In this document: positions 1-38,898 of the stretch, one piece after another
Position numbering within the stretch: position 1 is the stretch's first letter
How the letters are laid out: each line of letters starts with the position of its first letter
Virus record (IMG/VR): IMGVR_UViG_3300020465_000042
Coordinates: 1-39,090 of that record
Source of the DNA: a virus
Direction: 5' to 3' (one strand)
Length of the DNA: 39,090 bases
Translations under genes and position numbers: made by a program
The notes under the pieces: model-generated
The model's database searches: none
The model's input: only the letters and a program-made list of their open reading frames with translations
What the model was told of the DNA's origin: nothing

Positions 1-257
1 ATAGAACCTAAACATAAAGCAATATCTACCATAGGACCATCATATCCTTCGATAGAACACTTAACATCAGCAGCATCGTTGTATGGATCTATACCCCAAA
101 GGTGATCTATTTTGCCTTTGAATTTATTAAATCCACACCCAACATCTAATACCCTAGTAGGTTTTTTAGCATTAACATAATCGACCAACTGATAGCCAGA
201 ATACTTAAGAGATTTAAAATCTTGGTCTTGCCAAACTCCATTAAAATACGAATCCAT
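1..257 (-). CDS. Class I SAM-dependent methyltransferase, N-terminal part (cut by window edge)
   Basis: This reading frame starts at ATG 257-255 and runs off the window at position 1, so about 85 residues are visible. Residues about 33-40 read VLDVGCGF, the glycine-rich motif I that binds S-adenosylmethionine in Rossmann-fold methyltransferases. A GIDPYN stretch follows, where the acidic residue that contacts the ribose is usually found, and then DIALCLGS, consistent with motif II/III. The start codon overlaps the stop of the upstream sulfotransferase by one base (TAATG), which suggests translational coupling and a shared transcript. The acceptor cannot be deduced. Because it follows four sulfotransferase-like genes, a sugar or small-molecule O-methyltransferase is a reasonable inference, and nothing visible favours a DNA methyltransferase. 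The fold call is fairly safe; the substrate is unknown. Confidence 0.75.
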   Translation of the reverse strand, partial: MDSYFNGVWQDQDFKSLKYSGYQLVDYVNAKKPTRVLDVGCGFNKFKGKIDHLWGIDPYNDAADVKCSIEGYDGPMVDIALCLGS

Positions 258-1456
258 TAGGTGTGCCACTTATTATTGTTTAACATATCTACAGCTTCAT
301 CAGACGTAGGTATGCATCCTGGATCAATTCTCATGATCTCTTCAAGTGCTTTTGAAGTTTCTTCTTCAGTCATTTCATTTAACTTAGGAACTTTAACTGT
401 GTCCATAGTCATCCATGATTCAGGTATAGAACCAAACACACGTTCCCACTCAGTATATGCCTCATCCATTATACATCTAGCTACTTGTTGTTGCTGATGG
501 CTTAGATCTACTTGGTCACTCATCCACTGGTCTGACAGATTTGGAAGTTTAGGTGCTCTAGATCCCATCTCAGGAACGTAAACATTTGGAAACATATCAT
601 CTATCTTATATCCTATAAAATCTGATAGTTTCTCCATTGCTTCTTTACCACCCCATTTGTCACCATTACGTTCCCATAGTTCTTCCATCACTGTCATATG
701 GACATTCTCTTCACCAAACGCTTCACACCATCTCCTATAACCTTCTGTATATAAAGTTATAACATCCATCTCATGACCACATAAATGTGTATTCTTACCC
801 AATAAACATTGCCAATATAAATGCCAAGGATCCTGACATCCACCACGTTTCTTTCTTTGGAACCATCTAAATTGATTCTTAGACCATGCCCTTCTAACAG
901 GATCCCTACATGTTATAATTATCTTAACATTAAAAATTTCCCTTACTTGATCTGCAAAGAGTTTTACAAAGTCTTCTGGTAAGTAAATGTTATTAACTGT
1001 AAAGTCTGATACTGCGTGGTATTCCCCATTTTCAACTACATTCTCATGATGAAGTTTATAATAATTAATATATTTTTGAAATGTATGTGGTTGTGAGAAG
1101 AATTTATCAGTATATTCTCTAGTCCAATGCTCATTAGCACCTGATGTATACATCACCTGTGATGGTCTATCTCTTAAACCAAACTCCATAAATTTTTCAT
1201 TATCTGGATCATCACGGAAGGTCTCATGCATTACCCTACGAAATGTTACCTTCTTCTTATCTAAAGTGTAATAATCTTTAATATTATAATGAAATATGTG
1301 CTCTAGATATTTGTTTTCTTTTAAATGCCCACAATGACAATATCTATTCCAATCTCCTAAAGTGTAATACAGTGGACTTGTACCACTCCAACCTGTCCCA
1401 ATACACATGAACAATGTTGGTTTATTTTTCAGATTGATTTTGTACTTGGTTCCCAT
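257..1456 (-). CDS. Sulfotransferase-family protein, copy A
   Basis: A 399-aa protein with the two PAPS-binding signatures of sulfotransferases. The 5'-phosphosulfate loop is GTGWSGTSPLYYTL at about residues 20-33. The 3'-phosphate signature is RDPVRRAWS at about 184-192, with Arg184 and Ser192 in the usual R-x7-S spacing. The expected reaction is transfer of sulfate from PAPS to a hydroxyl or amine of an unknown acceptor, probably a glycan or metabolite in the cytoplasm; no signal peptide or membrane segment is visible. It is closely related to the next gene upstream (1465-2691), sharing nearly identical blocks such as GDWNRYCHCG and NGDKWGGKEAMEKLSDFI. It lies 8 bases downstream of that paralogue and overlaps the methyltransferase start by one base. 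The C-terminal ~40 residues are acidic and differ from the paralogue. The fold is confident; the acceptor is not known. Confidence 0.8.
   Translation of the reverse strand: MGTKYKINLKNKPTLFMCIGTGWSGTSPLYYTLGDWNRYCHCGHLKENKYLEHIFHYNIKDYYTLDKKKVTFRRVMHETFRDDPDNEKFMEFGLRDRPSQVMYTSGANEHWTREYTDKFFSQPHTFQKYINYYKLHHENVVENGEYHAVSDFTVNNIYLPEDFVKLFADQVREIFNVKIIITCRDPVRRAWSKNQFRWFQRKKRGGCQDPWHLYWQCLLGKNTHLCGHEMDVITLYTEGYRRWCEAFGEENVHMTVMEELWERNGDKWGGKEAMEKLSDFIGYKIDDMFPNVYVPEMGSRAPKLPNLSDQWMSDQVDLSHQQQQVARCIMDEAYTEWERVFGSIPESWMTMDTVKVPKLNEMTEEETSKALEEIMRIDPGCIPTSDEAVDMLNNNKWHT
633..681 (-). repeat. 49-bp exact repeat shared by sulfotransferase copies A and B (first copy)
   Basis: The segment 633-681 is identical to 1877-1925, and 1329-1382 is identical to 2573-2626 over 54 bases. 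These lie at corresponding places of two paralogous genes whose other parts have diverged strongly, so they mark recent duplication or gene conversion. Confidence 0.85.
1329..1382 (-). repeat. 54-bp exact repeat shared by sulfotransferase copies A and B (first copy)
   Basis: This is identical to 2573-2626. It codes the SPLYYTLGDWNRYCHCG segment right after the PAPS-binding loop. Confidence 0.85.
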
Positions 1457-1464
1457 AATTTAAT

Positions 1465-2691
1465 TCATACTGATGGTTTACTTAGATATAATGAAGATAT
1501 AGTGTCTCCATTTCCTTTTTTTTCTAACCACTTTATACCCTTCTCTGATGTGGGTTTACAAAGGGGATCAAACTCCATTACTTCCATAAGTGTTGTCAAT
1601 TGTTGTTCTTGATCTGATGTATTTAACTTAGGAACTTTAACTTTGTCTAAAGTCATCCATTCTTTAGGTATGGAACCAAACACACGTTCCCACTCAGTAT
1701 ATGCTTTATCCATTAAACGTCTTGCTACTTGCTCCTGTTCGTAAGTTAAATCTACTTGATCACTCATCCATTGATCTGATAGATATTCAAGTTTAGGTGC
1801 TTTAGATTTCATATCAGGAACATATACATTAGGAAACATATCAGTTATTTTATAATTTATAAAGTCTGACAGTTTTTCCATTGCTTCTTTACCACCCCAT
1901 TTGTCACCATTACGTTCCCATAGTTGTTCCATAACCGTTACGTGGACATTCTCTTTACCAAATGCCTCAGACCATCTCCTATAACCTTCTGTATATAAAG
2001 TTATAAAATCTATATCCTCATAATTATAACTTATATCATTAGCCAATAAAGACTGCCAATATAAATGCCAAGGATCTTGACATTGAAACTTTTTTCCTCT
2101 TTGGAACCATCTAAATTGATTTTGAGACCATGACCTTCTGACAGGATCCCTACAAGTTATAATTATTTTAACATCAAAATGATTTCTTATTTCATTTGCA
2201 AACTCCTTTACGAATTTTTCTGGAAAGTAAATATTTTGAACTGTAAAGTCTGATACTGCATGATATTTACCATTCCCAACTATTCTATTCCAAAGTTTCT
2301 TATAGTAATCAATAAATTTTTCAAATGTATGTGGTTGTGCTAAAAAATCACTAAGATAATCTTTACTCCATTTTCTATTAACTTTCGATTTAAAGGTTAC
2401 TTGTTTGGGTCTAGTCCTCAATCCAAACTCTTTAAATTGTTCATCTTCTACCTCATCACGCAAGGATGCATGCAGCACTCTACGAAAAGATACTTTTTTC
2501 CTGTCTAACAGGAAAAATTCTTTGTTGTTATAAAGATGTATATGTTCCAGATATTTGTTTTCTTTTGCAATTCCACAATGACAATATCTATTCCAATCTC
2601 CTAAAGTGTAATACAGTGGACTTGTAGCACTCCATCCTGTACCTATACACATTAACAATATTGGTTTCTTTTCGACATACTTAGATCCCAT
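1465..2691 (-). CDS. Sulfotransferase-family protein, copy B
   Basis: A 408-aa paralogue of the gene at 257-1456. The P-loop-like 5'-PSB is GTGWSATSPLYYTL at about residues 17-30. The 3'-PB is RDPVRRSWS with Arg181 and Ser189. Both cofactor-contacting motifs are intact, so it is probably an active PAPS-dependent sulfotransferase. The region between the motifs (about 45-170) has diverged most from copy A, which suggests a different acceptor or relaxed constraint, while the C-terminal core stays nearly identical. The ATG overlaps the end of the preceding gene by 11 bases, which implies coupled translation. No transmembrane segment or export signal is visible. Confidence 0.8.
   Translation of the reverse strand: MGSKYVEKKPILLMCIGTGWSATSPLYYTLGDWNRYCHCGIAKENKYLEHIHLYNNKEFFLLDRKKVSFRRVLHASLRDEVEDEQFKEFGLRTRPKQVTFKSKVNRKWSKDYLSDFLAQPHTFEKFIDYYKKLWNRIVGNGKYHAVSDFTVQNIYFPEKFVKEFANEIRNHFDVKIIITCRDPVRRSWSQNQFRWFQRGKKFQCQDPWHLYWQSLLANDISYNYEDIDFITLYTEGYRRWSEAFGKENVHVTVMEQLWERNGDKWGGKEAMEKLSDFINYKITDMFPNVYVPDMKSKAPKLEYLSDQWMSDQVDLTYEQEQVARRLMDKAYTEWERVFGSIPKEWMTLDKVKVPKLNTSDQEQQLTTLMEVMEFDPLCKPTSEKGIKWLEKKGNGDTISSLYLSKPSV
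1877..1925 (-). repeat. 49-bp exact repeat, second copy
   Basis: This is the partner of 633-681. It encodes the NGDKWGGKEAMEK region of copy B, with the same codons as in copy A. Confidence 0.85.
2573..2626 (-). repeat. 54-bp exact repeat, second copy
   Basis: This is the partner of 1329-1382, in the N-terminal part of copy B. Confidence 0.85.
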
Positions 2692-3460
2692 AACCTATTT
2701 CATCCTCACAATTAATAAATGCAATAGCAGTATCCCAACTGGGGGATCTGGTATAGATTGAATAATCTACACAGTAGTTTCTTATATATGCAGTGTATTC
2801 AAACTCACCATTCTTATCCCACACAAACCCCATCTTACCTAAAGTAAACCTAGTAGGAGATATAATAACTGAGTTCTTTGTACGTCTTACAAACGCTCTT
2901 AACTGTACATTATGTCTATGATTTATCTCTTTAAAGTTATCTTCATTCTCCTTACAGTGATTACCTACACCAGCAGACTCGCCAGGATCGTCCTTAACCA
3001 TCCAAGCAGTATATCTAGGGTAATCCTTATCAAACGTCATAGAGGTCAGCCAACGGTCATCACAGAGGTCTCTATCCCTTAGTACACATATGTACTTATT
3101 ATTGGGAAAATGTTTAAACAACCAACGTATATTATGTTCCTCACAGAACCAATGACACTTGATCATATAGTTATCTTTATCATTGATATCCTCATACGGT
3201 TTAATACACTCTTGTATGAACTCTTCCTTAGTATAGTTCTCAGGTATATCATCAAACTTCTCACCATATGTCATACCAGGTCCTATGAAATGACCTTTGT
3301 GTTCAATGTAATATCTTCCTTCATGCTTCATACAACGGTCTTCGTTGTAGTCTGACATACTAAATTTAAAGTTACTACAACACCTTAACAAAGAGTCTAT
3401 CTTTGCCCATCCTGATCCTGGTATACCAAGAAAGAATACTAATTGCTCATCTCTTACCAT
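2681..3460 (-). CDS. Divergent sulfotransferase-like P-loop protein, copy C
   Basis: A 259-aa protein. It begins with a beta strand and a glycine-rich loop, FFLGIPGSGWAKIDSLL at about residues 9-25, in the place and pattern of a sulfotransferase 5'-PSB loop. A later strand, KYICVLRDRDLCDDRW, lies where the 3'-PB helix would begin, but the canonical R-x7-S spacing is missing. It is clearly paralogous to the neighbour at 3454-4212: both share YTK-EFI-EC-KP, FPNNK-ICVLR and the pattern MTF-x-x-x-YP-x-Y-x-AWM. It is much shorter than copies A and B. The first codon lies 7 bases inside the upstream gene. I infer a PAPS-binding or related P-loop transferase; kinase-like or non-catalytic roles cannot be ruled out. 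Confidence 0.6.
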   Translation of the reverse strand: MVRDEQLVFFLGIPGSGWAKIDSLLRCCSNFKFSMSDYNEDRCMKHEGRYYIEHKGHFIGPGMTYGEKFDDIPENYTKEEFIQECIKPYEDINDKDNYMIKCHWFCEEHNIRWLFKHFPNNKYICVLRDRDLCDDRWLTSMTFDKDYPRYTAWMVKDDPGESAGVGNHCKENEDNFKEINHRHNVQLRAFVRRTKNSVIISPTRFTLGKMGFVWDKNGEFEYTAYIRNYCVDYSIYTRSPSWDTAIAFINCEDEIGYGI

Positions 3461-4212
3461 AAGTCGTTACAGTTGTACAATACAAAAGGTGAATCGTAAT
3501 GTGGATAATCACATTTATAAAACTGGTGTATTAGCATCAGTTTATTATATTCTTCTATGCCTTCTCTATCCCAAGAATAGTCTAGATCATTTAAGAATCT
3601 TCTATTGGGATTTATTACATATACCCTACTATCATTTTCCAATACCCATTGCCTTAACATCTTATCATGTCTTTGTATCAAAGACCATAGTTTCTTTTTA
3701 TGTGATGGGTGGTCATCATCATGCCTATGCTCCCATTCCATCCATGCTTTGTACTGGGGATAGTTACCAGTAAAGGTCATACCAGAATACCAACCTTCTA
3801 AACTTAACTGCCTTTCTCTAAGAACACATATAATCTTATTGTTAGGGAAGTTCTCTGTTAACCAGTTAAGGTTATGAGTCTCAGCAAAGAAATGAGATCT
3901 GATAAGATAGTTCCTATCATCATGTTCTTGAAATGGTTTTAAACATTCCTCTATAAACTCTTGCTTAGTATAGTTCTTACCAATATCATCAAACCCATCA
4001 CCAAACTCCATCATAGGATCCCAGTAAGCACCCTTATGATGTATTATTTCAGGTACTCCATTCTTACCACATTCCTGTCTTTCTATAGACCTGTCAGTAT
4101 TATTAAGATTTAATTTTTTACAGCAAGATAGTAGCAGTGATAGTTTTGACCAACCACTACCAGGTATTGCTACGTAAAATATTAATTGTTCTTCTTTAAA
4201 ATGTTCCAGCAT
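3454..4212 (-). CDS. Divergent sulfotransferase-like P-loop protein, copy D
   Basis: The protein is 252 aa from ATG 4212. The frame is open to a GTG at 4224, but the ATG start gives MLEHFKEEQLIF, which lines up with MVRDEQLVF in the paralogue at 2681-3460, so I prefer it. A glycine-rich loop, YVAIPGSGWSKLSLLLS, lies near the N-terminus and resembles the PAPS-binding loop of sulfotransferases. Near the middle is IICVLRERQLSLEGW, at the position of the 3'-phosphate signature but without clean R-x7-S spacing. The start overlaps the end of the 109-aa gene by 17 bases, so it is probably translated as part of the same operon. Function is inferred from fold resemblance and from two bona fide sulfotransferase genes downstream. 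Confidence 0.6.
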   Translation of the reverse strand: MLEHFKEEQLIFYVAIPGSGWSKLSLLLSCCKKLNLNNTDRSIERQECGKNGVPEIIHHKGAYWDPMMEFGDGFDDIGKNYTKQEFIEECLKPFQEHDDRNYLIRSHFFAETHNLNWLTENFPNNKIICVLRERQLSLEGWYSGMTFTGNYPQYKAWMEWEHRHDDDHPSHKKKLWSLIQRHDKMLRQWVLENDSRVYVINPNRRFLNDLDYSWDREGIEEYNKLMLIHQFYKCDYPHYDSPFVLYNCNDLW

Positions 4213-4525
4213 CAGCAGCAGCACTCTTTGCAGCAGGTTTTTGATTCCTTAACGTCCTACTTTTAGGTGCTTTCTTTGCCTTAGATGCAGGTACTGCCTT
4301 TACCTTTGGTGGTTCAGGTGTAGGTTCAGGTTCTGGTTGTATAATAGGACTCCTACTTACTGGTGCTGGTGGAGGTGCTGATTGTAATTGAGTTATTGCT
4401 TCTCCCATCTGCTGTATCTGAGTATTCAACACCATTATCTTTGCTTCATATGCAATAGACTGTGCTTGTGAATCACTCAAACGTTTCTGATATACGTTTA
4501 ATAATGCTTGTACTTCTGGATCCAT
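4196..4525 (-). CDS. Small coiled-coil protein with Pro-rich and Lys/Ala-rich tail
   Basis: A 109-aa protein in three parts. Residues 1-48 are predicted helical and heptad-like (MDPEVQALLNVYQKRLSDSQ, later IQQMGEAITQLQ). Residues about 49-72 are rich in proline and glutamate (PPPAP, PEPEPTPEPP). The C-terminal third is basic and Ala/Lys-rich and ends in DAGTF. That ending resembles the ends of the tail fibre (DGGSF) and of the 124-aa protein (DGGEW). Short proteins of this layout are found in cyanophage tail regions without assigned function. The ATG sits directly after the T-tract of the terminator that follows the tail-fibre gene, leaving no room for a separate promoter or an unobstructed ribosome site. 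A structural or adaptor role is a guess. Confidence 0.7.
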   Translation of the reverse strand: MDPEVQALLNVYQKRLSDSQAQSIAYEAKIMVLNTQIQQMGEAITQLQSAPPPAPVSRSPIIQPEPEPTPEPPKVKAVPASKAKKAPKSRTLRNQKPAAKSAAADAGTF

Positions 4526-4528
4526 AAT

Positions 4529-4554
4529 AAAAAAGGGGACTGTGTAGTCCCCTT
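4529..4554 (-). terminator. Intrinsic terminator after the tail-fibre gene
   Basis: On the minus strand, AAGGGGACT (4554-4546) pairs perfectly with AGTCCCCTT (4541-4533) around a 4-base loop (ACAC). A run of T follows (4534-4529, then ATTAT). It lies 27 bases after the tail-fibre stop, so it closes the fibre transcript. The next gene's ATG (4525) begins right after it, so downstream genes need read-through, or the hairpin also controls translation. Confidence 0.85.
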
Positions 4555-4580: not shown

Positions 4581-7500
4581 TTAGAACGATCCACCGTCAA
4601 TGGTTATGTTCTCAAGTGATCGTGTAGTACCGCTACAGGAGATAACCTGTGAAGCACCAGCACAGTCATTTAAGTATAGAGAACCAACTTCTAGACCAGC
4701 GTAACTTATGGAACTCATGACTCCAGATGTCTCAGTGACTTCATCACCGAACACAAAGCGTCCAGCAGAGTCATCCCAGAACATCGCTGCTTTCTTAGCA
4801 GATCCGTCATAGTAGTTCATCACAATACCAACGTCCTTGTTAGTATCGTTACTTAAAGCACCACCGTCAACAACTTGAAGTTCAAGTAACACGTCCTCAA
4901 TGGTTGTGTTAGTTGTATTAATCTGAGTTGTTGTACCGTCAACTGTGAGGTTACCAGAGACATTCAGGTTAGTTGCATTTAGAGTACCACCTGAGTATGT
5001 TAAGGTGTTATTGTCCTCAACAGCACCGTTTGATCCAGCGAGAAGAACACGACCCTCAGTCAAGTCAGAGACTGTTAGAGAACCGATAGTTGTTTCACCA
5101 CCAGTGATGTTAGCACCACCGTTAATATCAAGAGCACCACCTACAGTTAAACCAGCACCTACATTAACCGTTGTAGAGTTAAGGTAAGCAATTGTAGAAT
5201 CGCCTGTGTCTGTGATAGATCCAGTTACGTCACCAGTTAGGTTACCAGTTACGTTACCTGTAACATCACCAGTCACGTCTCCAGTTACGTCACCAGTAAG
5301 ATCACCAGTCACGTCTCCAGTTACGTCACCAGTTAAGTTACCCGTTACGTTACCAGTTACAGCACCAGTTACGTTACCCGTGTGTGTTCCAGTTGTGTCA
5401 CCAGTTAGATCACCAGTGAAGTTTGTTGCAGTTACAGCAACACCAGTCAAGTTACCACTGAATCCTGTTGCGGTAGCGATTCCAGTAACAATTAAGTCTC
5501 CGCTAGTCTTTAAAGAATGAACAGAGAATATATCTCCGATTTCTTTAAATGATACGATTTCAACTTCATCACCAGCATTTGATCCAGAATCAAGAACAAC
5601 TGTTGCTCCATCCTGTGCTGTAAAGTCAGTACCTGCGACTAGGCGAACACCGTTTAAGTAAACATCAACGAATCCGTCTGTGTATCCAGCACCGAACGTA
5701 AATGTTGTTTGGTTCTGTACAGCAGTTATTGTCTGGTTTGTTGTGTAAGTCGATGCAGCAACACCACTAATGGTGATAGTTGCCATCTCGTCTTCAACCT
5801 TAAACTCTTCAAGTCCAGTACCGTTGAACTTAAATGCAGTAACAATACCAGCGTGAGTAGCAGAAGAAACACCAACTAAAGGAATTAATCCACCGTTGAC
5901 TTTCTTAACACTTGCTGCTCTAAAGTCAGAAGCAGTAACAATTCCTGTAACGTTAATTGTGTTAGCAGAAACCTGACCAAGTGATGATATACCAGATACG
6001 TCTAACTGTTCAGCATCAACACTCTGGGATGTTGTCATTCCAGATACGTTAATGGCACTGAAGTTAGCACCCTGTCCACCGCCTAATACGTAGTCTTTAA
6101 CACGTGCAACTGTGGTCTTTCTGTTAGTACCACCAGCACCGTCATCAATTAGTAGTAAGTCAGCATCAACGATGTCAGCACCGATATCGGTAGCACCGTC
6201 AATATTAACAGAAGCAACATCAACAACAACTGAAGATGAAAGTGCAGTAGCACTTAAAACTTCTGTATTGTCTATCTTAAGAACTTTACCTGACTGAATG
6301 TCAATGTTCTCAGATGATGTGAAGTTATCGCCTGATGATGAATATTGCCATGTCTTATTTCCGTCACCCGATTGAACTGTAATACCACCACCGTTAGCAG
6401 CAGCATCATTAGCAGCACCATCAGCAAGCATTACGTTGAGGTCATCAACAGTAACTGATGTTGAGTTAACGATTGTTTGTGTACCGTCAACCTGTAAATC
6501 ACCCTTAATTATAACTCTACCTGTGTTATCACCTACTCCAGCAGGGTCAAGGAAGAATGTTGCAGGACCTGTGATACTGTCTGATGTAACAATCAGAGCA
6601 GAACCAGAAGCACCAGTAGCGAACTGATTACCTGAAACATTACCAGAGAATGTACCAGTTGAACCAGCAACTGTTCCTCCAGAAATTGAACCAGTTACGT
6701 CTCCAGTGAGGTCTCCAGTTACATCACCCGTTACGTCTCCAGTTACATTACCAGTCACGTCACCAGTAAGATCACCAGTCACGTCTCCAGTTACGTCACC
6801 AGTAAGGTCTCCAGTTACGTTACCAACAACTCCACCATTTGCTGTAATAGCACCTGTGAAGGTTGAAGCTTCAGCAACGGTTAATCCGTCTAAGGTAGTA
6901 GCACCATCTACATCTAACGCACCAGTTATAGATACGTCTGAACTAGCAGTTAAATCTCCACTTAATGTTTGAGCACCAGTAACAGCAAGAGTCGAACCAT
7001 CAAAGGTTAGATTTCCACTGTCTTCAAGAGAACCACCTGTACCAGCAAGAACAACACGGTTGTCTGTTAAATCTTGAACAGTTGCAGAAGCAGCAGTTAG
7101 TTCTCCACCAGAAACAGTAGCACCACCGTTAGCATTAACTGCTCCAGTGAATGTACTAATTCCAGATACTTTAAGTTGTGTTGCATCAACATAAGCAACA
7201 GTACTGATACCACTTACATTAATTGCTGTGAAAGTAGCACCGTCTCCACCACCTAGGACATAATCCTTAATTGTAGAAGCAGTAACTTTATTGTTAGTAC
7301 CACCAGCACCGTCATCTATTAAGAAGAGGTCAACATCAGCAACTTCTGATGTTTCTGTACCGCCATCTAGGTCGATAGCAGCAAGTGGTAATGTATTAGT
7401 ATCAGCACCAGCAAGAGAACCAGTTATATCACCAGTTACGTCACCAGTTAAGTCTCCAGTAATTCCACCTGATACAGTCAAGTTTCCAAGAGTACCAACG

Positions 7501-9758
7501 CTAGTCAAACTAGAGTTAACAACTCCTGAACCAAGAGTAGTAGCATTAAGAACTGATGTTTCAGCAATGTTATAATCCTTACCAGAAGCAAGATCCATCT
7601 TCTCTGAAGATGTCCATGAATCTGTAGAATCTATCCAGTTAAATGTCTTGTCTGATGTACCCTTCAGAGTTATACCACCACCATCGGCAGAAGTATCTGT
7701 AGGAGAAGCAGTTGAACCAAGTTCAATGTTCTTATCATCAACAGTTAAGGTAGTACTGTTAATTGTGGTTGTTGTACCATCAATTACAAGGTTACCAGAA
7801 ACTGTTAGGTCATTACTGATTGTTGCATCACCAGTAACACCAAGAGTACCAGAAGCGAATGTTAAGTTACCACTGTCAGTTATTTCTCCACCTGTACCAG
7901 CAAGAACAACACGTCCAGATGTAAGGTCTTCTACCTTTACACTACTTGCATTAAGACCACCGTTAGCATCAACAATACCACCAAATGTACTTACACCAAC
8001 AACCTTAATAGTTGCTAGGTCAGTTGCATTTTTACCATTCTTTAAGATGTAATCAACAAGTTGGTCAGCAGTTGCTTTTCTATTAGTACCACCAGCACCG
8101 TCATCTATTAAGAAGAGGTCTGCATCAGCAATAGCACCAACAGCACCAGCACCATCTAAATCGATAGCAGCAACTGGAAGCGTATTAGCAGTAGCACCAG
8201 CAAGAGAACCAGTTATGTCTCCAGTTAAGTCACCAGTTACGTTACCTGTAACATTACCAGTTACGTTACCAGTAAGATCACCAGTTACGTCTCCAGTTAC
8301 ATCACCCTGAACTCCTTGGTCTGCATTAATAACACCACTAAATGTACTTACACCAGAAACTGCTAATGTTGTTGCTTTAGCAAATGTTAATGTACTGATT
8401 CCAGTTACATTGATAGCAGCAAAGTTTGCACCAGCACCACCACCAAGCATGTAATCCTTGATGTCTTCAGCAGTTATCTTCTTATTAGTACCACTAGCAC
8501 CGTCATCAACGATGAATAAGTCTTCGTTCTCTAGGTCAGCACCGATATCGGTTGCACCGTCAATATCAAGTGAATCTAGTGAGACATCAATAGCAGATGC
8601 TAAAGTAGTTCCTGAAAGGACTTCTGTGTTAGCAACTTTAAGTACCTTACCTGAAGCAAGGTTAATGTTTTCAGATGAACCCCAGTTGTCGCCAGTTGCT
8701 TCAAACTGGAAGGTCTTATCACCATCTCCAGAGTCAGCAGTAATACCAGCACCATCAGCAGCAGCATCGTTTGCTGCACCTGTGGCTAATTGAATGTTCT
8801 TATCTGTTACGTTAACTGTTGTTGAGTTAACGATTGTTTGTGTACCATCAACTTGAAGGTCACCAGCAATAACAACTGTACCCGTGTTGTCTCCAACACC
8901 AGCAGGGTCAAGTGTTAATGTAGATGGACCTGATATAGTATTTGTAGTTAATCTTAACGCATTTCCTTCAGTACCCAAATGGACTGCCGAAGTTGTAACG
9001 ATACCAGAATTATTAATCTGGTCTGATGTAATCTGACCAAAGGAATTGTCACCTGTTGAGGTTACATTACCTGTTAGGTTTCCAGTTACATTACCTGTTA
9101 CATCACCAGTAAGGTCTCCAGTGACATCTCCAGTTACGTCACCAGTAAGATCTCCTGTTACATTACCTGTAACATTACCTGTAACATCGCCAGTAAGGTC
9201 TCCAGTGACATCTCCAGTTACATCACCAGTTAAGTTACCAGTTACGTTACCTGTTACATCACCAGTAAGGTCTCCAGTGACATCTCCAGTTACGCCTCCG
9301 CTTGCGGTCAGAGTACCACCAATGGTAGCTGCTGAAGAGACATTTACTGTAGTTGATTGTAAAAATGCGACAGTACCTACACCAACCGAGTTAACTCTGG
9401 TTGCATCTAGGGTGTCGTCCCATGTTAAACTTCCATCAGCAGCAACCTTCAGATATCCGTCTGTGGTTATTGTTGATGGAAAAGTTAGTGTTAAATTCTC
9501 AGCTAGACTTGCAGGAGACTTTAAACTGATGTAGTTAGATCCATTGCCAGAACCTTCAACAAGGTTGACAGAAGAACCAGCAGCAGCCTCTTCCTTTGTC
9601 CAATATCGATGAGATCCAAAAAATTTATTATTTGATGATGTCGAGTCTATTCCGACATAGAGATCGTATTTGTCCGTGGTAAAACCAGGCTCACCCGCAC
9701 GGAGTCCTGGTAGGTTGGCAAACAGACCTCTCTTAAACTGAATTACTGGAGCAGCCAT
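4581..9758 (-). CDS. Giant repetitive tail fibre protein
   Basis: The protein is 1725 aa. The N-terminus, about residues 5-38 (QFKRGLFANLPGLRAGEPGF then TTDKYDLYVG), resembles the N-terminal domain of phage major tropism determinant-like and tail-fibre proteins, which attaches fibres to the baseplate. The body alternates blocks of G-[DN]-[VL]-T tetrapeptides (about residues 153-234, 484-518, 766-779, 976-1023 and 1433-1514) with larger repeated modules built around LFLIDDGAGGTNRK and around VDGTQTIVNST. These suit a long trimeric beta-structured shaft. The last ~110 residues (VGIVMNYYDGSAKKAAMFW onward) are non-repetitive and end in TIDGGSF; this is the likely receptor-binding or chaperone-docking tip. 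Base composition is visibly richer in GC than in the neighbouring genes. A close relative of the late motif lies 27 bases upstream. A fibre role is well supported; receptor and partner proteins are not visible. Confidence 0.85.
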   Translation of the reverse strand: MAAPVIQFKRGLFANLPGLRAGEPGFTTDKYDLYVGIDSTSSNNKFFGSHRYWTKEEAAAGSSVNLVEGSGNGSNYISLKSPASLAENLTLTFPSTITTDGYLKVAADGSLTWDDTLDATRVNSVGVGTVAFLQSTTVNVSSAATIGGTLTASGGVTGDVTGDLTGDVTGNVTGNLTGDVTGDVTGDLTGDVTGNVTGNVTGDLTGDVTGDVTGDLTGDVTGNVTGNLTGNVTSTGDNSFGQITSDQINNSGIVTTSAVHLGTEGNALRLTTNTISGPSTLTLDPAGVGDNTGTVVIAGDLQVDGTQTIVNSTTVNVTDKNIQLATGAANDAAADGAGITADSGDGDKTFQFEATGDNWGSSENINLASGKVLKVANTEVLSGTTLASAIDVSLDSLDIDGATDIGADLENEDLFIVDDGASGTNKKITAEDIKDYMLGGGAGANFAAINVTGISTLTFAKATTLAVSGVSTFSGVINADQGVQGDVTGDVTGDLTGNVTGNVTGNVTGDLTGDITGSLAGATANTLPVAAIDLDGAGAVGAIADADLFLIDDGAGGTNRKATADQLVDYILKNGKNATDLATIKVVGVSTFGGIVDANGGLNASSVKVEDLTSGRVVLAGTGGEITDSGNLTFASGTLGVTGDATISNDLTVSGNLVIDGTTTTINSTTLTVDDKNIELGSTASPTDTSADGGGITLKGTSDKTFNWIDSTDSWTSSEKMDLASGKDYNIAETSVLNATTLGSGVVNSSLTSVGTLGNLTVSGGITGDLTGDVTGDITGSLAGADTNTLPLAAIDLDGGTETSEVADVDLFLIDDGAGGTNNKVTASTIKDYVLGGGDGATFTAINVSGISTVAYVDATQLKVSGISTFTGAVNANGGATVSGGELTAASATVQDLTDNRVVLAGTGGSLEDSGNLTFDGSTLAVTGAQTLSGDLTASSDVSITGALDVDGATTLDGLTVAEASTFTGAITANGGVVGNVTGDLTGDVTGDVTGDLTGDVTGNVTGDVTGDVTGDLTGDVTGSISGGTVAGSTGTFSGNVSGNQFATGASGSALIVTSDSITGPATFFLDPAGVGDNTGRVIIKGDLQVDGTQTIVNSTSVTVDDLNVMLADGAANDAAANGGGITVQSGDGNKTWQYSSSGDNFTSSENIDIQSGKVLKIDNTEVLSATALSSSVVVDVASVNIDGATDIGADIVDADLLLIDDGAGGTNRKTTVARVKDYVLGGGQGANFSAINVSGMTTSQSVDAEQLDVSGISSLGQVSANTINVTGIVTASDFRAASVKKVNGGLIPLVGVSSATHAGIVTAFKFNGTGLEEFKVEDEMATITISGVAASTYTTNQTITAVQNQTTFTFGAGYTDGFVDVYLNGVRLVAGTDFTAQDGATVVLDSGSNAGDEVEIVSFKEIGDIFSVHSLKTSGDLIVTGIATATGFSGNLTGVAVTATNFTGDLTGDTTGTHTGNVTGAVTGNVTGNLTGDVTGDVTGDLTGDVTGDVTGDVTGNVTGNLTGDVTGSITDTGDSTIAYLNSTTVNVGAGLTVGGALDINGGANITGGETTIGSLTVSDLTEGRVLLAGSNGAVEDNNTLTYSGGTLNATNLNVSGNLTVDGTTTQINTTNTTIEDVLLELQVVDGGALSNDTNKDVGIVMNYYDGSAKKAAMFWDDSAGRFVFGDEVTETSGVMSSISYAGLEVGSLYLNDCAGASQVISCSGTTRSLENITIDGGSF
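5216..5460 (-). repeat. Tetrapeptide-coding DNA repeat block, C-terminal shaft
   Basis: Twelve-base units on the plus strand such as ccagttacgtca and ccagttacgtta encode G-[DN]-[VL]-T on the minus strand. Units differ mainly by synonymous or D/N and V/L changes. The block maps to about residues 1433-1514 of the fibre. Confidence 0.85.
6690..6830 (-). repeat. Tetrapeptide-coding DNA repeat block, middle shaft
   Basis: This holds the same 12-base units as the other fibre blocks, coding G-[DN]-[VL]-T at about residues 976-1023. Long stretches match the blocks at 5216-5460 and 9055-9300 almost exactly, so they could recombine. Confidence 0.85.
8205..8305 (-). repeat. Tetrapeptide-coding DNA repeat block
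   Basis: A shorter run of the 12-base units codes G-[DN]-[VL]-T at about residues 484-518. A still shorter run lies at about 7420-7465. Confidence 0.8.
9055..9300 (-). repeat. Tetrapeptide-coding DNA repeat block, N-terminal shaft
   Basis: About twenty 12-base units code G-[DN]-[VL]-T at about residues 153-234. Inside it the higher-order pattern of alternating D-type and N-type units itself recurs, which suggests expansion by unequal exchange or slippage. Confidence 0.85.
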
Positions 9759-30200: not shown

Positions 30201-32456
30201 GATTGGTGTATCTAAGTAATCGACACCTTCATTATCTACAATAACATCAACAACTTCACCACTTACATGGGCATATACGGATGCTCCTACACCACTAATA
30301 TTTTCCCTTACAGACAGTCTAGGTGGATTTACGACATCATAATCTTCTCCGTTGTTTAGAACGCTTACAGAGTCTATAGCACCAAAGTATACTTTATCTG
30401 GTGACTTGTAAGATACAATCTCAACACCATTGGCAAATAGACCAATAGCACCTTCAGATGCTACAGATTTCTTACCTGTAGATGATGGGATAGGTGGATA
30501 GGTTGGTATAGGTATTCTCTTGAATAATTTTTGCCCACCTAGAGTATGACCATATAGATTAAACGGTGTTAGTCTATGGGTTGATATACCAGCTATTACA
30601 CTGAATATCTCAATGAACTCACCACTTCTAACATTCTCCTGTGTAGATGCTAATCTGATCTGATTGTCATTTACCTTCTTAACATAGTAACCTTGTGCAG
30701 TATTCAAACCTACACTACTATCCCAGTCACTAATATGCTCATATACGACTAATTCACCAGTAATGAAATTATGCTGACTTATATCAATCGTATATCCGTC
30801 ATTTTGACTATTATTAAATGTTCTTATCTTACTATCTGCATTTATTTCCCAATGTGGAATACTATTTGATGCAACGTATAAATCAGTTCCTTTTGAATAA
30901 GTATTCTGAACATCAGCTGTATATGTGTTAGTTGTCTTTAAATTTCTTCTAAAGTAATGATTTCTAGTTAAATCGATTGTACCAGCATTAATTTGAATAA
31001 CTAGGTCACTTATGATACTTGTGATCTTTGCAGCAACTGGAGTATCAGTATTAATGTCATATACAGTTATATCGTCACCAACGTATAATTGGTTCTTATT
31101 TTCCAATATTAACTCATATGTACCAGGTGACACTAATTCAATTTTAAATATCGCATATTTGGAAGGTGTATTGTAAATCCAAGCATTATAACGCAATTCG
31201 TCCTTTTCAAGACCTAAACTTCTAACATTAATCTCAGATCCGACATTTTGGTTCTGAGCAACTCCAGTAAAGTCATTTAAAACTTCTACGACTTGTAATT
31301 CGACTTTATTACTTAAATCACCTTCTTCATAAGAATATACGTTCAAACCTGAACTTACAGTCGATCCTATGCCAGCAGTGCTTGATAATCCTTTAATATC
31401 CCTAAATTGGGTATAACTCTTTGCACCATACGTTAATCTGTCTCCACCAAATTTTAAAACGCCTTCACTAGCAAATCCAACCGTAGAATCGACATTTAAG
31501 ATGTCTGTACTTACAACACCGAATTCTGTGATGTAAGTCTTCTTAATTGGTTCAAAATTGCCAAGTATTGTATCTGTTGATAAAGAAACTTTGTAATAAC
31601 GTTTTTTATTGATTACATACTCTTCTATATCATAAATTGCAGCAGATGACTGTATTGGGGTCGTATCTTGGAATAATGTTTCTCCAGAAATCTTACGTGG
31701 GTCTCCATTAACCAAAGTACACAAAAGAACCGTATTTCTAATGAAATCGGCATCAGAAGGTTTGAATAAGTATTTTTGTGGTTGTACTAAGTCAACATCT
31801 TCATTATAGAGAACTCTGAAGAGAATATCAAATGCTTCGGGTGTTCCTTTAGTTGAATAGAAGTCTTTTGCCTGTCTGATGAAATTTGCTTCATCCAACT
31901 CACCAAATAGTCCTCTTTCTTCAAATCCAGGTAATACTTGTATCTTTAACTTCCTTAAGAACTCTTTTAGGAAGATATTGCTTAAATTAGTAACTTGTGC
32001 TTCATTAGCATGAGTAGCAATACCAGTTGATGTAAATGTTAAAAATTCTGGTTTATTAGTAGTCTCATTCTTCTCAATAGCACTAAAACCACGAACACAA
32101 CCCATAAAGGAGTTAGTTGTGATTCCTGTGTAGGTTATTATCTCATTATTGATCTTTAGAAGACCCCATTGCTCAGGCCAACCTTTAGTTGACTGAACAT
32201 TGATAGTATCAGCAGCACCATTTACATATGCAGTCAAACTGGTGACTCCAACAAGATTCTCGTTAGTAATACGAGTTAATCCTTTATATTCAACTAAATT
32301 ATCAGCAATGTCTACAGTACCACCTTGAAATTCTTGTGATATGTAATATTGCTTTAAAAATTCAGCAAATAATGGATTATCGGTATGGATGTGTTCAGGA
32401 ATTTGGCTCTGAACAACATCATTGATTTTTACCTTGTATATTGAGGTTTCAATCAT
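24276..32456 (-). CDS. 7: Giant gp7-like baseplate wedge protein with an embedded YHYH domain
   Basis: A 2726-aa protein encoded directly after gp6, where T4 has gp7 (1032 aa), so the gene is more than twice the usual length. The N-terminal 220 residues are typical of large cyanophage proteins at this locus (IPEHIHTDNPLFAEFLKQYY; LLKINNEIITYTG; FYSTKGTPEAFDILFRVLYN). A domain at about residues 1165-1290 reads YAYDGNPIYGP, then DLDEHNGRF and TPEYPNGVYAYYVT, then PYIIG. This is the pattern of the YHYH domain, better known from secreted bacterial proteins. The rest is beta-rich repeats with many GIGT/VGIS turns. Start and stop both overlap neighbours by one base (TAATG). The gp7 identity rests on order and N-terminal character; the YHYH domain is seen in the sequence. 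Confidence 0.7.
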   Translation of the reverse strand: MIETSIYKVKINDVVQSQIPEHIHTDNPLFAEFLKQYYISQEFQGGTVDIADNLVEYKGLTRITNENLVGVTSLTAYVNGAADTINVQSTKGWPEQWGLLKINNEIITYTGITTNSFMGCVRGFSAIEKNETTNKPEFLTFTSTGIATHANEAQVTNLSNIFLKEFLRKLKIQVLPGFEERGLFGELDEANFIRQAKDFYSTKGTPEAFDILFRVLYNEDVDLVQPQKYLFKPSDADFIRNTVLLCTLVNGDPRKISGETLFQDTTPIQSSAAIYDIEEYVINKKRYYKVSLSTDTILGNFEPIKKTYITEFGVVSTDILNVDSTVGFASEGVLKFGGDRLTYGAKSYTQFRDIKGLSSTAGIGSTVSSGLNVYSYEEGDLSNKVELQVVEVLNDFTGVAQNQNVGSEINVRSLGLEKDELRYNAWIYNTPSKYAIFKIELVSPGTYELILENKNQLYVGDDITVYDINTDTPVAAKITSIISDLVIQINAGTIDLTRNHYFRRNLKTTNTYTADVQNTYSKGTDLYVASNSIPHWEINADSKIRTFNNSQNDGYTIDISQHNFITGELVVYEHISDWDSSVGLNTAQGYYVKKVNDNQIRLASTQENVRSGEFIEIFSVIAGISTHRLTPFNLYGHTLGGQKLFKRIPIPTYPPIPSSTGKKSVASEGAIGLFANGVEIVSYKSPDKVYFGAIDSVSVLNNGEDYDVVNPPRLSVRENISGVGASVYAHVSGEVVDVIVDNEGVDYLDTPIVSITGGGGQGYAEAKMKRVPHEAVFNSASVGGVVSTENDTFTFKTPHGFHVGEELIYSTQDTTPIGIGTTPGNLVDKASYFAIPDPNDDFKMTITDSKINSLAGIGTIDITQNGIGYHIFETRERRLKVDKVRIIDGGRFYNKENTLRVPNPTVDHRINKYTNVIYVPSHGYADGDEIQYVCDDPVSGLDNKGLYTVEKLDDDNFKIGVDFGTVTAGIHTFRYAPIEVTIKGRQGISTDPASASPIIRGSIDHIHIIDGGKNYGSIVMNDNFRVPIDIIKGSGALLRPYVVNGRIEQILVKDGGKDWYSIPDIIIEGTGYGAKARGRVDNGKLVGVDIIDRGGNYQQSTTFVRAETPGKNSILSSNINAWTLDEVDRHYDMAGDDDGYIDTPTKSAYGSKYVNYYAPKKLREFLGDDNNGHSPILGYAYDGNPIYGPIANHNVDGTGGLRLMKSSYALQNFGIRINGPDYTEYPAGSFVEDYAYVENYGDLDEHNGRFSVTPEYPNGVYAYYVTVKQSQGDLVPVFPYIIGHTYHSDPVLFNYGFFSNQEIDPGSLGLLKNTLPYNLKEYEFSGPANRGTETNSRIIKVSEGGIEKLDIFESGLDYTVGDRVVFDNEGTNGFGALAKVSRIEGVGITTVTSSINELLDVELIPMGRKVLGITTIPHGLNDGYYINVANTNLPDLEGRFQIDLEYVSSFLLDEMQPTGLTTSVSTSDDVHKKFRVDDILQIDAEKFKVLDLDLKNNKLVLERTLLGTAGAAHTYRSKIERLEKEFTYEVPRKLNFSTPTNYIRYFDAANSVGVGLTVGISTLGITSTGVGIGSYVSIVAAGNTTKPFFVPAGGIYIPGNSFLNNEKCKYSPGAGTSLTYSPDGVQQQPLPSIVYISQIGNNIVGIKTEPTGSPVLFNGNIGIGNSHSLKTNRAVGLGTVQSFEITVTTDKEHGMRPGDDIDLTLVSAASSSVYAGYSGATRFVDIDGINNPRISVTKGDTLRFLTHSPTLTDTKIEFFLDPFFTQRFYGSALDAIEITNVGVSGDNKEFETYTDIHFSENVPDFLFYKFESNNPTKIIEVDVDQSEYGKIVVSPSRFSGKHSLSTSTSNTFTYNIFDCQERVGYSTDSTISYTTTSENTIGPIAKVDILNQGKGYVSIPNVEVESDTGNGADLIPFGIKIGDLQRVDIEEYGYDYPTDKTMQPQAIVPDVITLRDNFQLDTVGIVTGGKNYLIAPDLVVYNTKQDQLQPEAAVRCELVGNSVGEVEITANGGSMESTDNVLFPVNNSNGVGIVSAAYAAPYVTLRLKTPQSGFTTEFPVPFTIGDKVFVENIGVSSGHGYNSQDYAFQYFTLTGVSTAFGMLDQTTVTYEVDTDPGDHDAQQYGSIVKKTDMASFSMELKEAQFYNGEEIYTKKASNNCIRGDGNLTNVLRVDSIVGFNTGDQIRGKVSQASAYIKGMQSFTGNFDTGVSIIRNSDWERDTGKLNEYFQRIQNSDYYQQFAYSLKSRVGISSWDEPVDALAHISGFKKHSDLLIPSIAGVAGSITMTDQVKTPSTIFLDNEAHINCHYNYDSVYEITNDTETKTDEIVFKSLKFGNSLMCDGNRVLEIDDISPQFYNDPAIKRNIEIDTLNLGSFNAIKYFAQIVVTPSTMLQSNETQYIEFVISADDTVAFNNQYSTLSDAFNLGTFYTETIGDLVSVKFSPFNSVLTYDITFYKEIMTIATGVGATSFGGALKSGNTTNVPANTSRNLLSVNAMDFKCGQVLVAASGNGKKEVVESTFIGIGSTAHFVNYAEMDSDGTDLGDFSINIDGNNQILLDWQSNVGYSATVSALASFIGVGQTYNNSTTGIQTSRYQVGDSVLHTSYTEIAQSPSSSIETIETMGFNDFTSWRLLVNIENVTDGEQSVFNMAVNTFEGDANWNRYGLVSTGSSDPKRDLLNMEIQVSGSNCLLRFTPRDNIDYIIRTSQIRITKPDGIPFDTVKTLS

Positions 32457-35986: not shown

Positions 35987-36241
35987 TTAATCGCAAAACC
36001 ATACATCATCTTCAGGCAGCACAAAATATGAAAAATCTTGTTGTGGAGTTGGTTTCAAATCCCAACGTATAACTTCAATCTTGTAATACTCTGCTAACTC
36101 TTTCTTTATATCTTCCTCAGTTTTATCGTCAGGGTAATCAATTGCCATTTCCATTAGACAATCATATACTATCTCCCAAGTTGACTTGGGGATACTCTTA
36201 TCCTTGAACTTAAAGTCAAGATAGTGGCTACTCCAAAGCAT
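35987..36241 (-). CDS. Small acidic protein downstream of the radical SAM gene
   Basis: The protein is 84 aa: MLWSSHYLDFKFKDKSIPKS, a helical stretch TWEIVYDCLMEMAIDYPDDK, then a charged helix and a C-terminus rich in aromatic and acidic residues (FVLPEDDVWFCD). The start overlaps the radical SAM gene by 14 bases, so translation is probably coupled. No family is recognised. Small proteins attached to radical SAM genes are sometimes substrates or binding partners; nothing here (no Gly-rich or Cys-rich core) proves a peptide substrate, although Cys83 next to the C-terminus is noticeable. Confidence 0.65.
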   Translation of the reverse strand: MLWSSHYLDFKFKDKSIPKSTWEIVYDCLMEMAIDYPDDKTEEDIKKELAEYYKIEVIRWDLKPTPQQDFSYFVLPEDDVWFCD

Positions 36242-37505
36242 ACTTCGCTAATTCAGGGAATGTTTCTTTCCAATTCGTGTCTCCACGTATTTGGTCAGTC
36301 TTATCAAAATATTCTAATGCAAATTTCCACTGTTGTTCATTTCGTGGTTGCATCATATCATGGTATATATGCTCCGCTACGCTTTTTACATTATCTCCTA
36401 TCTGTTCTTTTATTTCATCTGGTAAATGTCGAGTTTGACAAAATGTAGGATTCTCAATTCTATTCAAAAGTACATTGTCTTCACCAAATATATCATAATC
36501 CTTCATCCACTGTACCGTATTGTGTAAGTCTAATATACCAAGGATACTCGGTGTTATAGTACATTTAAAATTACCTATCTTCCAATTTGGATTAGAGTAA
36601 TGGAGATAGTCTCGCATTGCAAATACGTTATCGATAGTAGTATCCCAATTTGTAGGATATCTCAACCAATGGTTACGTTCAGTTAAACCATCTACAGACC
36701 ATTGCATCTCAATCCATCTAAAAGCGTCAATATACTTCTTCATCTTCTTAATAGTAGTATGTGTCATATTTGAAACATACCCTAATTCAATACCTTTTGC
36801 TTCACCTGATTCTATTAACTCATCTAGAAGTTCAAAATGCGATTTCATCATCATGGGTTCTCCCCCACAAAAGACTATAACCCTAATGTTCTTCGCATGT
36901 TTGACAATATCATCTTTAAATGAACGCCATTGCTCTGGATTTACCTTTTTAACATCCCTATCAACAAATGAATAGCGTTTTAACAATCCTAACCATTTTG
37001 GATCTATTTCACCAAGTTGTTTTACTGCATGTTCTCTACCACTGGAGTTTTCTACCTGACACTCATAACATTGAAGATTGCAGTAGTTACCAAAAGCATT
37101 TAATTCTAACTTAATAAACCTATGGTCTGTTTCGACCATCTTTCCTTCTTTATCAAAGTTTTGCAGACAATCTATATTAAGTGGGTTATTCATTCTTGGT
37201 GACCATCCACTTTCTTTCTCATCCTTCCAGCATAAATCGCAAGAATGCTTTAATCTAGGAGTCTTTTTACCCAATAGCATATCTTTTCGTAATTCAGTAA
37301 ACTCGTCTCCTTTGAAATGCTCTAGAGGATCCTTGTTTTGGGGACCATATGGAGTCATAGTCCTAGCCCAACAACATGGTTGATAATTTATTCCAGTACC
37401 ATTCCTCAACTGCTGAAATGGTAAGTTACACATAACCTTACTATCCTTTATAGACTCATACTCTTCCTTAGTCCATATTTTATTTGGGTTCTCATCTATC
37501 CACAT
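36228..37505 (-). CDS. Radical SAM protein with N-terminal twitch/SPASM-like half
   Basis: A 425-aa protein. The radical SAM [4Fe-4S] motif is C-x3-C-x2-C at Cys142, Cys146 and Cys149 (GNYCNLQCYECQ), and GGEPMM (214-219) is the SAM-binding motif. The N-terminal 100 residues contain further cysteines (Cys26, Cys44-45, Cys89, Cys92; PCCWA and HSCDLCWKDE). These look like the auxiliary-cluster half of 'twitch domain' radical SAM proteins, where the Cys-rich part precedes the barrel. Such enzymes generate a 5'-deoxyadenosyl radical. It starts two bases after the carbamoyltransferase stop, so they very likely act in the same pathway. The substrate is unknown. Confidence 0.82.
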   Translation of the reverse strand: MWIDENPNKIWTKEEYESIKDSKVMCNLPFQQLRNGTGINYQPCCWARTMTPYGPQNKDPLEHFKGDEFTELRKDMLLGKKTPRLKHSCDLCWKDEKESGWSPRMNNPLNIDCLQNFDKEGKMVETDHRFIKLELNAFGNYCNLQCYECQVENSSGREHAVKQLGEIDPKWLGLLKRYSFVDRDVKKVNPEQWRSFKDDIVKHAKNIRVIVFCGGEPMMMKSHFELLDELIESGEAKGIELGYVSNMTHTTIKKMKKYIDAFRWIEMQWSVDGLTERNHWLRYPTNWDTTIDNVFAMRDYLHYSNPNWKIGNFKCTITPSILGILDLHNTVQWMKDYDIFGEDNVLLNRIENPTFCQTRHLPDEIKEQIGDNVKSVAEHIYHDMMQPRNEQQWKFALEYFDKTDQIRGDTNWKETFPELAKYALE

Positions 37506-37506
37506 A

Positions 37507-38898
37507 CTAGAATACCCTTACATCGTATTTTGTAGAAAATGCTACAGCATCATCTATTGTATTTACCATAGGCATACCACGAATGTTTAATGAAGTATTT
37601 AAGAGGACAGGACACCCTGTTCTTTCATACCAGCACTCCAGTATGGGTCTAATGACGCTAGAAGAGATCTTAGGGACAGTTTGGACTCTTGCAGTGTTAT
37701 CGACATGTATACATGCTGGAATGGCACTACCACGCTTTGCAGAGTACACATAAGACATGTGCCTTGACTGCCTAGGCATATCAAAATAGTCTACTGCATG
37801 CTCTTCTAGTATTGCTGGTGCAAATGGTCTAAATCTTTGTCTTTTCTTGATATCATTTACTTTTCTCTTGTTCTCCATTTTTCTCGGATCCGCCAATAGA
37901 CTTCTGTTACCAAGAGCCCTAGGACCAAACTCAGCACGACCATTTGCAACACCAGCGAGTCCAGTTTTGAGGATTTCTTCGACAACTTCTTTAGGATCAC
38001 ACGGTTTCTCTATATTATAACCTAAGTACGGACTAAATGGAACTCTTTTACCATAAGAAAGCAAAGCAGCACCCAATGACCCACCAGCATCGCCAGGATT
38101 GGGCATAATCCATAAGTTATCATCACACTGTACTTGCAACTTAGAGTTAGCAACACAATTCAATGCAACTCCACCCCCATAGCAAATATTATCACTAAAC
38201 TTAAGAGCAATCTTGAATATCTTAGTTAACTCCTCTTCTAACACTACTTGAGCACTAGCAGCGATGTCTACATGGTCTCCATTTATCGGTCTTCTTATAC
38301 CTTTGTGATTATTTGCCCATAATTGTCTCCGTAATCGCTTGGTATGACAGGGTTTTCCAAAGGCACTCATTCCCATGAAAATATATTCTTCATCTAGGGG
38401 TTTTAGACCAACATAATCAGTTAAAGCAGAATACCAGAGTCCAATAGACCTTGGATAACACATATTCCACTTTTTATAGTATTTCGCAACTCCATTTTCA
38501 TATTTCGCCTTCCATATACTTGCAGTATCCCATTCTCCAATACTATCTACTACTACACAAGCTGCCTCGTCATATTTTGACGTTTGAAACGCAGCAGCAG
38601 CATGTGATAAGTGATGATAGTGATTAACTGTCGGTTTTAGTGCTAAAACACGTTCTTTTTTCGCAGTATCAAATTGACCTGCGAACCATTGACGTGATCT
38701 TTTGAGAAATCCAGTTTTTTCGTAAAATGCTATAGTATCATCGCCATTTAGTTCCAACGCTAAAGTCGCTTGTTCAGCAGTTAAGCGTTTATCGTGCTTT
38801 TTACGAGAATATCGTTCAGCATGACTGGCATATGTAATACGCCCATTCTTTACAACTGAAATGGCAGCATCATGAAAACCTTCACTAAATCCAATCAT
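37507..38898 (-). CDS. Carbamoyltransferase, NodU/CmcH/TobZ family
   Basis: A 463-aa protein. N-terminal MIGFSEGFHDAAISVVKNGR is the start of the Kae1-like domain. The metal ligands known in TobZ all appear: HHLSH with His95 and His99, Asp118 in VVVDSIGEWD, and Asp270 in PNPGDAGGSLGAAL. The C-terminal YrdC-like part has GRAEFGPRALGNRS (320-333), FRPFAPAIL and PVLLNTSLN. These enzymes use carbamoyl phosphate and ATP to place a carbamoyl group on a hydroxyl, usually of a sugar or antibiotic. TobZ is about 570 aa, so this version is compact, but it keeps all core motifs. The ATG overlaps the stop of a 28-codon microORF (ATGA) and the stop is one base from the radical SAM ATG. Activity is likely; the acceptor is unknown. 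Confidence 0.9.
   Translation of the reverse strand: MIGFSEGFHDAAISVVKNGRITYASHAERYSRKKHDKRLTAEQATLALELNGDDTIAFYEKTGFLKRSRQWFAGQFDTAKKERVLALKPTVNHYHHLSHAAAAFQTSKYDEAACVVVDSIGEWDTASIWKAKYENGVAKYYKKWNMCYPRSIGLWYSALTDYVGLKPLDEEYIFMGMSAFGKPCHTKRLRRQLWANNHKGIRRPINGDHVDIAASAQVVLEEELTKIFKIALKFSDNICYGGGVALNCVANSKLQVQCDDNLWIMPNPGDAGGSLGAALLSYGKRVPFSPYLGYNIEKPCDPKEVVEEILKTGLAGVANGRAEFGPRALGNRSLLADPRKMENKRKVNDIKKRQRFRPFAPAILEEHAVDYFDMPRQSRHMSYVYSAKRGSAIPACIHVDNTARVQTVPKISSSVIRPILECWYERTGCPVLLNTSLNIRGMPMVNTIDDAVAFSTKYDVRVF

Follow-up and report, generated by a model that had tools for sequence, protein, structure and literature searches.

The four genes considered here lie together in the virus record IMGVR_UViG_3300020465_000042, which was analysed over its full 39,090 bases (the window). 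They form consecutive open reading frames (ORFs) at 257-4224, all on the minus strand and transcribed in the order D, C, B, A, and their products are predicted to be sulfotransferase-like proteins that may decorate a surface glycan:

257..1456, minus strand: gene A, 399 aa, sulfotransferase-fold protein with 5' loop GTGWSGTS, Lys46-Glu47 and R184-x7-S192
1465..2691, minus strand: gene B, 408 aa, tandem paralogue of A
2681..3460, minus strand: gene C, 259 aa, second sulfotransferase-like family, with loop PGSGWAK, invariant His and a 3' site without serine
3454..4212, minus strand: gene D, 252 aa from the ATG at 4212, paralogue of C with a predicted sulfotransferase-like fold

A and B are 66% identical and C and D 42%, which divides the array into two families. 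Genes B and C overlap by 11 bases and C and D by 7, A and B are separated by a gap of 8 bases with no overlap, and A shares 13 bases with the next gene (3-269). An alternative GTG start at 4224 would give D 256 aa (3454-4224); the ATG at 4212 agrees with where its homologues start and accounts for the end coordinate in a first-pass annotation of this DNA, which had placed four genes of two families at 257-4212 and was right in both number and position. The arrangement is not a chance one, since D, C and a B-type gene follow one another in Marine virus AG-345-D19 as they do here, the B-A order repeats in IMGVR_UViG_3300030104_000299, and D-C recurs in many contigs. The G+C content of the array genes (0.32-0.36, against 0.37 for the window) gives no clear sign of acquisition either way.

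Fold and active-site motifs of the two families

The predicted model of A (predicted local distance difference test score, pLDDT, 84.4) matched the bacterial sulfotransferase 3rnl in Foldseek with an E-value of 1.6e-5. Alignment with VIA-align gave Z 17.6 for NDST1 (root-mean-square deviation, rmsd, 3.4 over 242 aligned residues), 17.1 for 3-OST-3 and 17.0 for 3rnl. Glycan-type enzymes rank first for A, because the scores against the glycan sulfotransferases (NDST1 and 3-OST, Z 16-17.6) exceed those against the tyrosylprotein (Z 12.7) and cytosolic (Z about 12 and below) sulfotransferases. A profile of the A/B family also reaches 3rnl by sequence (E 2.4e-8); searches of the PDB with single proteins gave no match, and only profiles succeeded. 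Structure prediction had been proposed in the first-pass annotation as the check on the fold, and for A it bears the fold out at Z about 17; the assignment of A and B to the sulfotransferase fold is secure.

The active-site motifs of A and B were counted in an alignment of 88 family proteins. The 3' motif, R-x7-S, is retained (R184 and S192 in 85/88 each), as is a Lys-Glu motif (K46 in 76/88, E47 in 83/88) that aligns with the K-E of cellular relatives and in which E47 may be catalytic. R189 and E258 are found in every member (88/88), and D309 and Q310 in 85/88 each. At the 5'-loop position usually held by Lys or Arg, A has Trp23, and the family has W in 59 proteins, F in 17, H in 6, Y in 6 and K/R in none; K/R stands at the aligned position in 13 relatives, ten of them cellular and three from other phages. 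The register of this loop is gapless between GTGWSGTSPL in A and GNPKSGTTSL in a phage relative from AG-345-D19, and likewise between GTGWSGTSPL and the loop of the cyanobacterial relatives, GVGAQKCGTSWL or similar. Comparing the profile with NDST1 or SULT1E1 as single sequences yielded no usable full alignment, so the register rests on the cellular relatives, which align over most of their length; read from these alignments, it is firm. In NDST1 the 5'-loop lysine, Lys614, is regarded as a catalytic acid (PMC3733922). The C-terminal stretch of the A/B family, N.Y.P..G..AP....L.DQW.SD, also differs from the shorter stretch around N-A-S-P-K in most cellular relatives.

These counts divide an earlier description of A and B as canonical enzymes with intact PAPS (3'-phosphoadenosine 5'-phosphosulfate) motifs, which was to fall if both copies had no PAPS site. 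The 3' half of the site is present and conserved; the 5' loop GTGWSGTS is non-canonical, with Trp in place of the basic residue, which has been replaced in A, in B and throughout the family, so the description is only half true, and PAPS use by A and B is putative.

The model predicted for D (pLDDT 87.8) gave tyrosylprotein sulfotransferases as the top matches in VIA-align (Z 9.6, rmsd 3.6, 180 aligned), with adenylate kinases at Z 7.7, and it matched a phage model named 'Sulfotransferase family' with an E-value of 5.5e-13 and template modelling (TM) scores of 0.67/0.77. A Foldseek search of the PDB placed a UMP/CMP kinase first and a tyrosylprotein sulfotransferase at an E-value of just 0.067. 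PF13469 was matched weakly by six of eight C/D members. Taken together, the matches of the D model make a sulfotransferase-like fold likely for C and D, and the two shorter genes are probably the sulfotransferase relatives for which they were first taken. A kinase identity was set aside, as no Walker A motif was seen by eye and kinases fall below sulfotransferases in VIA-align, though a UMP/CMP kinase tops the Foldseek search. Among 26 aligned C/D members the loop reads PGSGW, with a basic residue at column 24 in 6/26; H63, H111, W145 and Y158 are invariant (26/26), the 3' Arg, R136, is kept in 22/26, and column 144 holds R, G or W and in no member (0/26) serine.

Virus, distribution and genomic setting

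The gp6 baseplate gene of the window (32456-34336) is 99.7% identical to that of AG-345-D19 and about 50% identical to those of cultured Synechococcus T4-like phages. Plate AG-345 is listed with the extracellular sort gate in a data set for which 9 extracellular virus particles are reported (PMC6122165). The contigs of AG-345-D19, the sister genome, encode a psbA up to 95% identical to that of Prochlorococcus, which makes a marine picocyanobacterium very probable as host, and the window virus is probably an uncultured marine T4-like cyanophage of Prochlorococcus or marine Synechococcus. We also observed a psbA 93% identical to the phage gene in L118 (PAZU01000034.1), a metagenome-assembled genome labelled Euryarchaeota; this identity suggests a wrongly binned cyanobacterial or phage contig. 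The first-pass annotation had implied a PAPS demand on a host that assimilates sulfate, and adenosine 5'-phosphosulfate (APS) kinase is indeed encoded in 10/10 Prochlorococcus/Synechococcus genomes, while PF13469 sulfotransferases occur in 61/101 host-family genomes.

Searches of PHROGs gave no good match for either family, and among 50,697 phage records both matched AG-345-D19, a single-virus genome, only; A/B and C/D are thus families absent from catalogued phages except this one genome and recurrent in marine metagenomic phages. At least seven genes of these kinds were counted in 167 kb of AG-345-D19: three of A type, one with the lysine and three of C/D type. A four-gene array, earlier called unusual for a phage, is accordingly rare among catalogued phages and ordinary within this lineage, where four to eight copies are common. 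No A/B relative was confirmed among 84,980 bacterial and archaeal species genomes by a profile-derived pattern scan that reaches close relatives only, and 251 host-family genomes gave no C/D match in a weak search that had no positive control. The A profile matches some host-family sulfotransferases (best E 3.4e-20); no close cellular relative was found in the genomes searched. A lysine-loop (NPKSGTTSL) sulfotransferase-like gene stands between structural genes in AG-345-D19 (MH319720, L108:30929-31747) and has three relatives in viral contigs (L194-L196). In the paper collection searched, phrases such as 'phage sulfotransferase' gave no paper. Sulfotransferase genes of PF13469 type have been described in a few marine phage genomes, Synechococcus phage S-SRM01 and OM43 phage contigs, where their function was called unclear (PMC10580990).

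In syntenic loci the conserved D-C pair is flanked by a fibre gene and a 176-aa gene, and in the window A-B occupies the gap between D-C and the latter. Between the window and AG-345-D19, D differs by seven synonymous and no non-synonymous changes and C by five non-synonymous changes, with a ratio of non-synonymous to synonymous divergence (dN/dS) of 0.08. A and B differ from each other with a synonymous divergence (dS) of 0.58 and dN/dS 0.38, and they cluster with the B-type gene of AG-345-D19 in the tree at 100/99. A-B is a tandem duplication, and in our reading D-C is the older pair of the array. Origin of the whole array by recent local duplication was rejected, A/B and C/D being distinct families and D-C being found without A-B. 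Elsewhere, up to eight A-type genes lie within 13 kb, on both strands, in related marine contigs. The aromatic-loop proteins cluster together in the tree (88/95), and copies from the same array often fall in subfamilies common to several phages, so that the arrays hold diversified copies and not only fresh repeats. The adaptive diversification suggested in the first-pass annotation agrees with these old, distinct subfamilies of paralogues within arrays; its other suggestion, sulfation of several positions of one acceptor by the array copies, is possible.

Outside this gap, the large family to which A and B belong is concentrated in islands with a carbamoyltransferase. A NodU/NolO-type carbamoyltransferase was found in the fetched flank of 67/77 A-family loci and an SGNH-like protein in that of 62/77 (each 32/41 groups after merging near-copies); these counts are not independent, because the loci stem from related phages. 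The SGNH label follows from a motif only, and a Pfam search gave no match. The features around the array and in a second island of the window are as follows:

3..269, minus strand: start of the 176-aa gene, methyltransferase-like by its LDVGCG motif only; complete in contig L002
4196..4525, minus strand: 109-aa Pro/Ala/Lys-rich ORF upstream of D; present in AG-345-D19
4533..4554, minus strand: hairpin resembling an intrinsic terminator, with a T run after it, that separates fibre gene and array
4581..9758, minus strand: long fibre/virion structural protein of 1725 aa that neighbours the array on its upstream side
36228..37505, minus strand: radical S-adenosylmethionine (SAM) protein, in a second modification island near gp25
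37507..38898, minus strand: NodU/NolO-type carbamoyltransferase, in the second modification island

The 176-aa gene gave no match in a Pfam search. In other phages it usually follows D-C on the downstream side, and the pair also keeps its place next to the fibre gene there. The 109-aa ORF was not seen at D-C loci other than that of AG-345-D19. The fibre protein has long runs of GDVTG/GNVTG/GDLTG repeats and is 1725 aa long in the window, compared with 1615 aa in AG-345-D19. The radical SAM and carbamoyltransferase genes (36228-38898) adjoin the gp25/gp6 baseplate genes, where related phages carry A-type genes; the window stops just past them. Two further observations concern related loci. Another sulfotransferase-like loop, GPQGSGNHL..., marks a third family, encoded on the opposite strand in the interval from the D-C cassette to the neck genes (L002:2919-3566, L002:4296-5018, L023:6165-8079), often in two or three copies; two of its proteins were tested and had no Pfam match. 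A 439-aa protein, amidinotransferase-like by eye and with no convincing Pfam match, adjoins an A-type gene at L005:2585-3904 and L020:4636-5955.

Proposed role and comparison with known sulfotransferases

We propose as the best reading that the array enzymes carry out host-PAPS-dependent sulfate tailoring of a surface glycan, though we find the case for it evenly balanced. The enzymes would take sulfate from PAPS made by the host APS kinase during infection and attach it to surface-sugar hydroxyls, most likely those of the host envelope polysaccharide, with separate copies serving different positions or sugars. The altered polysaccharide would change binding by later phages or released virions; the acceptor might alternatively be a glycan on the virion, and sulfation could act alongside carbamoylation to alter adsorption. 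In support of this reading are the fold of A, the 3' and Lys-Glu motifs, the conservation of D and C, the recurrence and synteny of the genes and the PAPS capacity of the host. Several observations weigh against it. An aromatic residue (W/F/H/Y) replaces the 5'-loop Lys/Arg in 88/88 A/B proteins, and C and D have neither a canonical basic residue in the 5' loop nor the 3' serine. The similarity of the D model to sulfotransferase folds is moderate, A scores 17.4 bits against the curated PF00685 cut-off of 22, and B has no sulfotransferase match in Pfam. The association with the carbamoyltransferase is due in part to the many loci drawn from a single genomic island of related phages, and a glycan acceptor is a supposition of the proposal.

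The replaced residue could instead belong to a rebuilt active site on the sulfotransferase fold, with another donor, another transferred group or non-catalytic glycan binding, which is possible if on the unlikely side. The basic residue lost in all 88 proteins and kept as K/R in 13 relatives, the C-terminal stretch changed from that of most cellular relatives, and the single grouping of the aromatic-loop family in the tree all point this way, and a site that is altered yet still maintained would be expected to show the observed retention of D309 and Q310. Against this, 85/88 proteins keep the 3' motif, by which known enzymes contact the 3'-phosphate of PAPS. The 5' loop of WSCD1/2, PGSGNTW, also holds no basic residue, and its likeness to the PGSGW of C/D is a lead only. 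WSCD1/2 are sialate O-sulfotransferases and use PAPS (PMC9304399), so loss of the residue need not end activity. A broader form of the idea, in which cyanophages turned the sulfotransferase fold into a large aromatic-loop enzyme family with a different donor or mechanism that writes variable surface-glycan decorations together with the carbamoyltransferase, appears rather unlikely.

Somewhat less probable again is that D-C, and by location A-B, modify the phage's own tail fibre through sulfation of Tyr/Ser/Thr or of a fibre-bound glycan, and so tune adsorption. Where the upstream side of a syntenic locus is intact, D-C in most cases lies directly downstream of the fibre gene or one small ORF away; the top solved structures for D are tyrosylprotein sulfotransferases, and no other array genes are as conserved as D and C. 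The terminator-like hairpin between fibre gene and array, however, means that their joint expression is not assured; adjacency to the tail region in phages is often just cargo accumulation, the distant C/D relatives (L043-L047) do not stand beside recognised fibres, and likeness of fold does not define the acceptor. Host-derived auxiliary genes that add to sulfur or polysaccharide metabolism are very improbable: related sulfotransferases are frequent in host-family genomes and the A profile matches some of them, but none of the host relatives examined showed the aromatic 5' loop, the searches turned up no close cellular relative, and in the tree the phage family is old and has diversified. The contigs of AG-345-D19 gave no PAPS reductase, for which reason the sulfur-metabolism reading was given low weight.

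If, as proposed, the enzymes tailor surface glycans, variation in their copies offers a handle on changes in cyanophage adsorption and on the exclusion of competitors, with A-type genes reaching eight copies per locus across marine metagenomic phages. Should they prove active despite the missing conserved basic residue, they would also provide a test of the need for that residue in sulfotransferases.

Among known systems, NDST1, 3-OST-1/3/5 and 3rnl resemble A in overall fold (Z 16-17.6), in the 3' motif and in the order of elements. They keep the 5'-loop Lys, whereas A has Trp there, another C-terminal loop and about 12-16% identity to them, and A further differs from the heparan sulfate sulfotransferases and 3rnl in being phage-encoded and multi-copy. 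The K/R-type relatives from host-family genomes (L197-L208), with MH319720:30929-31747, align with A/B over most of their length; in them the 5'-loop residue is still basic, and the tree places them outside the phage group of 91 rows. TPST1/2 are the top solved-structure match for D (Z 9.6); D is unlike them in having neither the basic residue nor the 3' serine, and is about 14% identical. The S-SRM01 and OM43 genes are also of sulfotransferase type and occur in marine phages; they were reported as PF13469 genes, and among phage records the A/B and C/D families match AG-345-D19 only.

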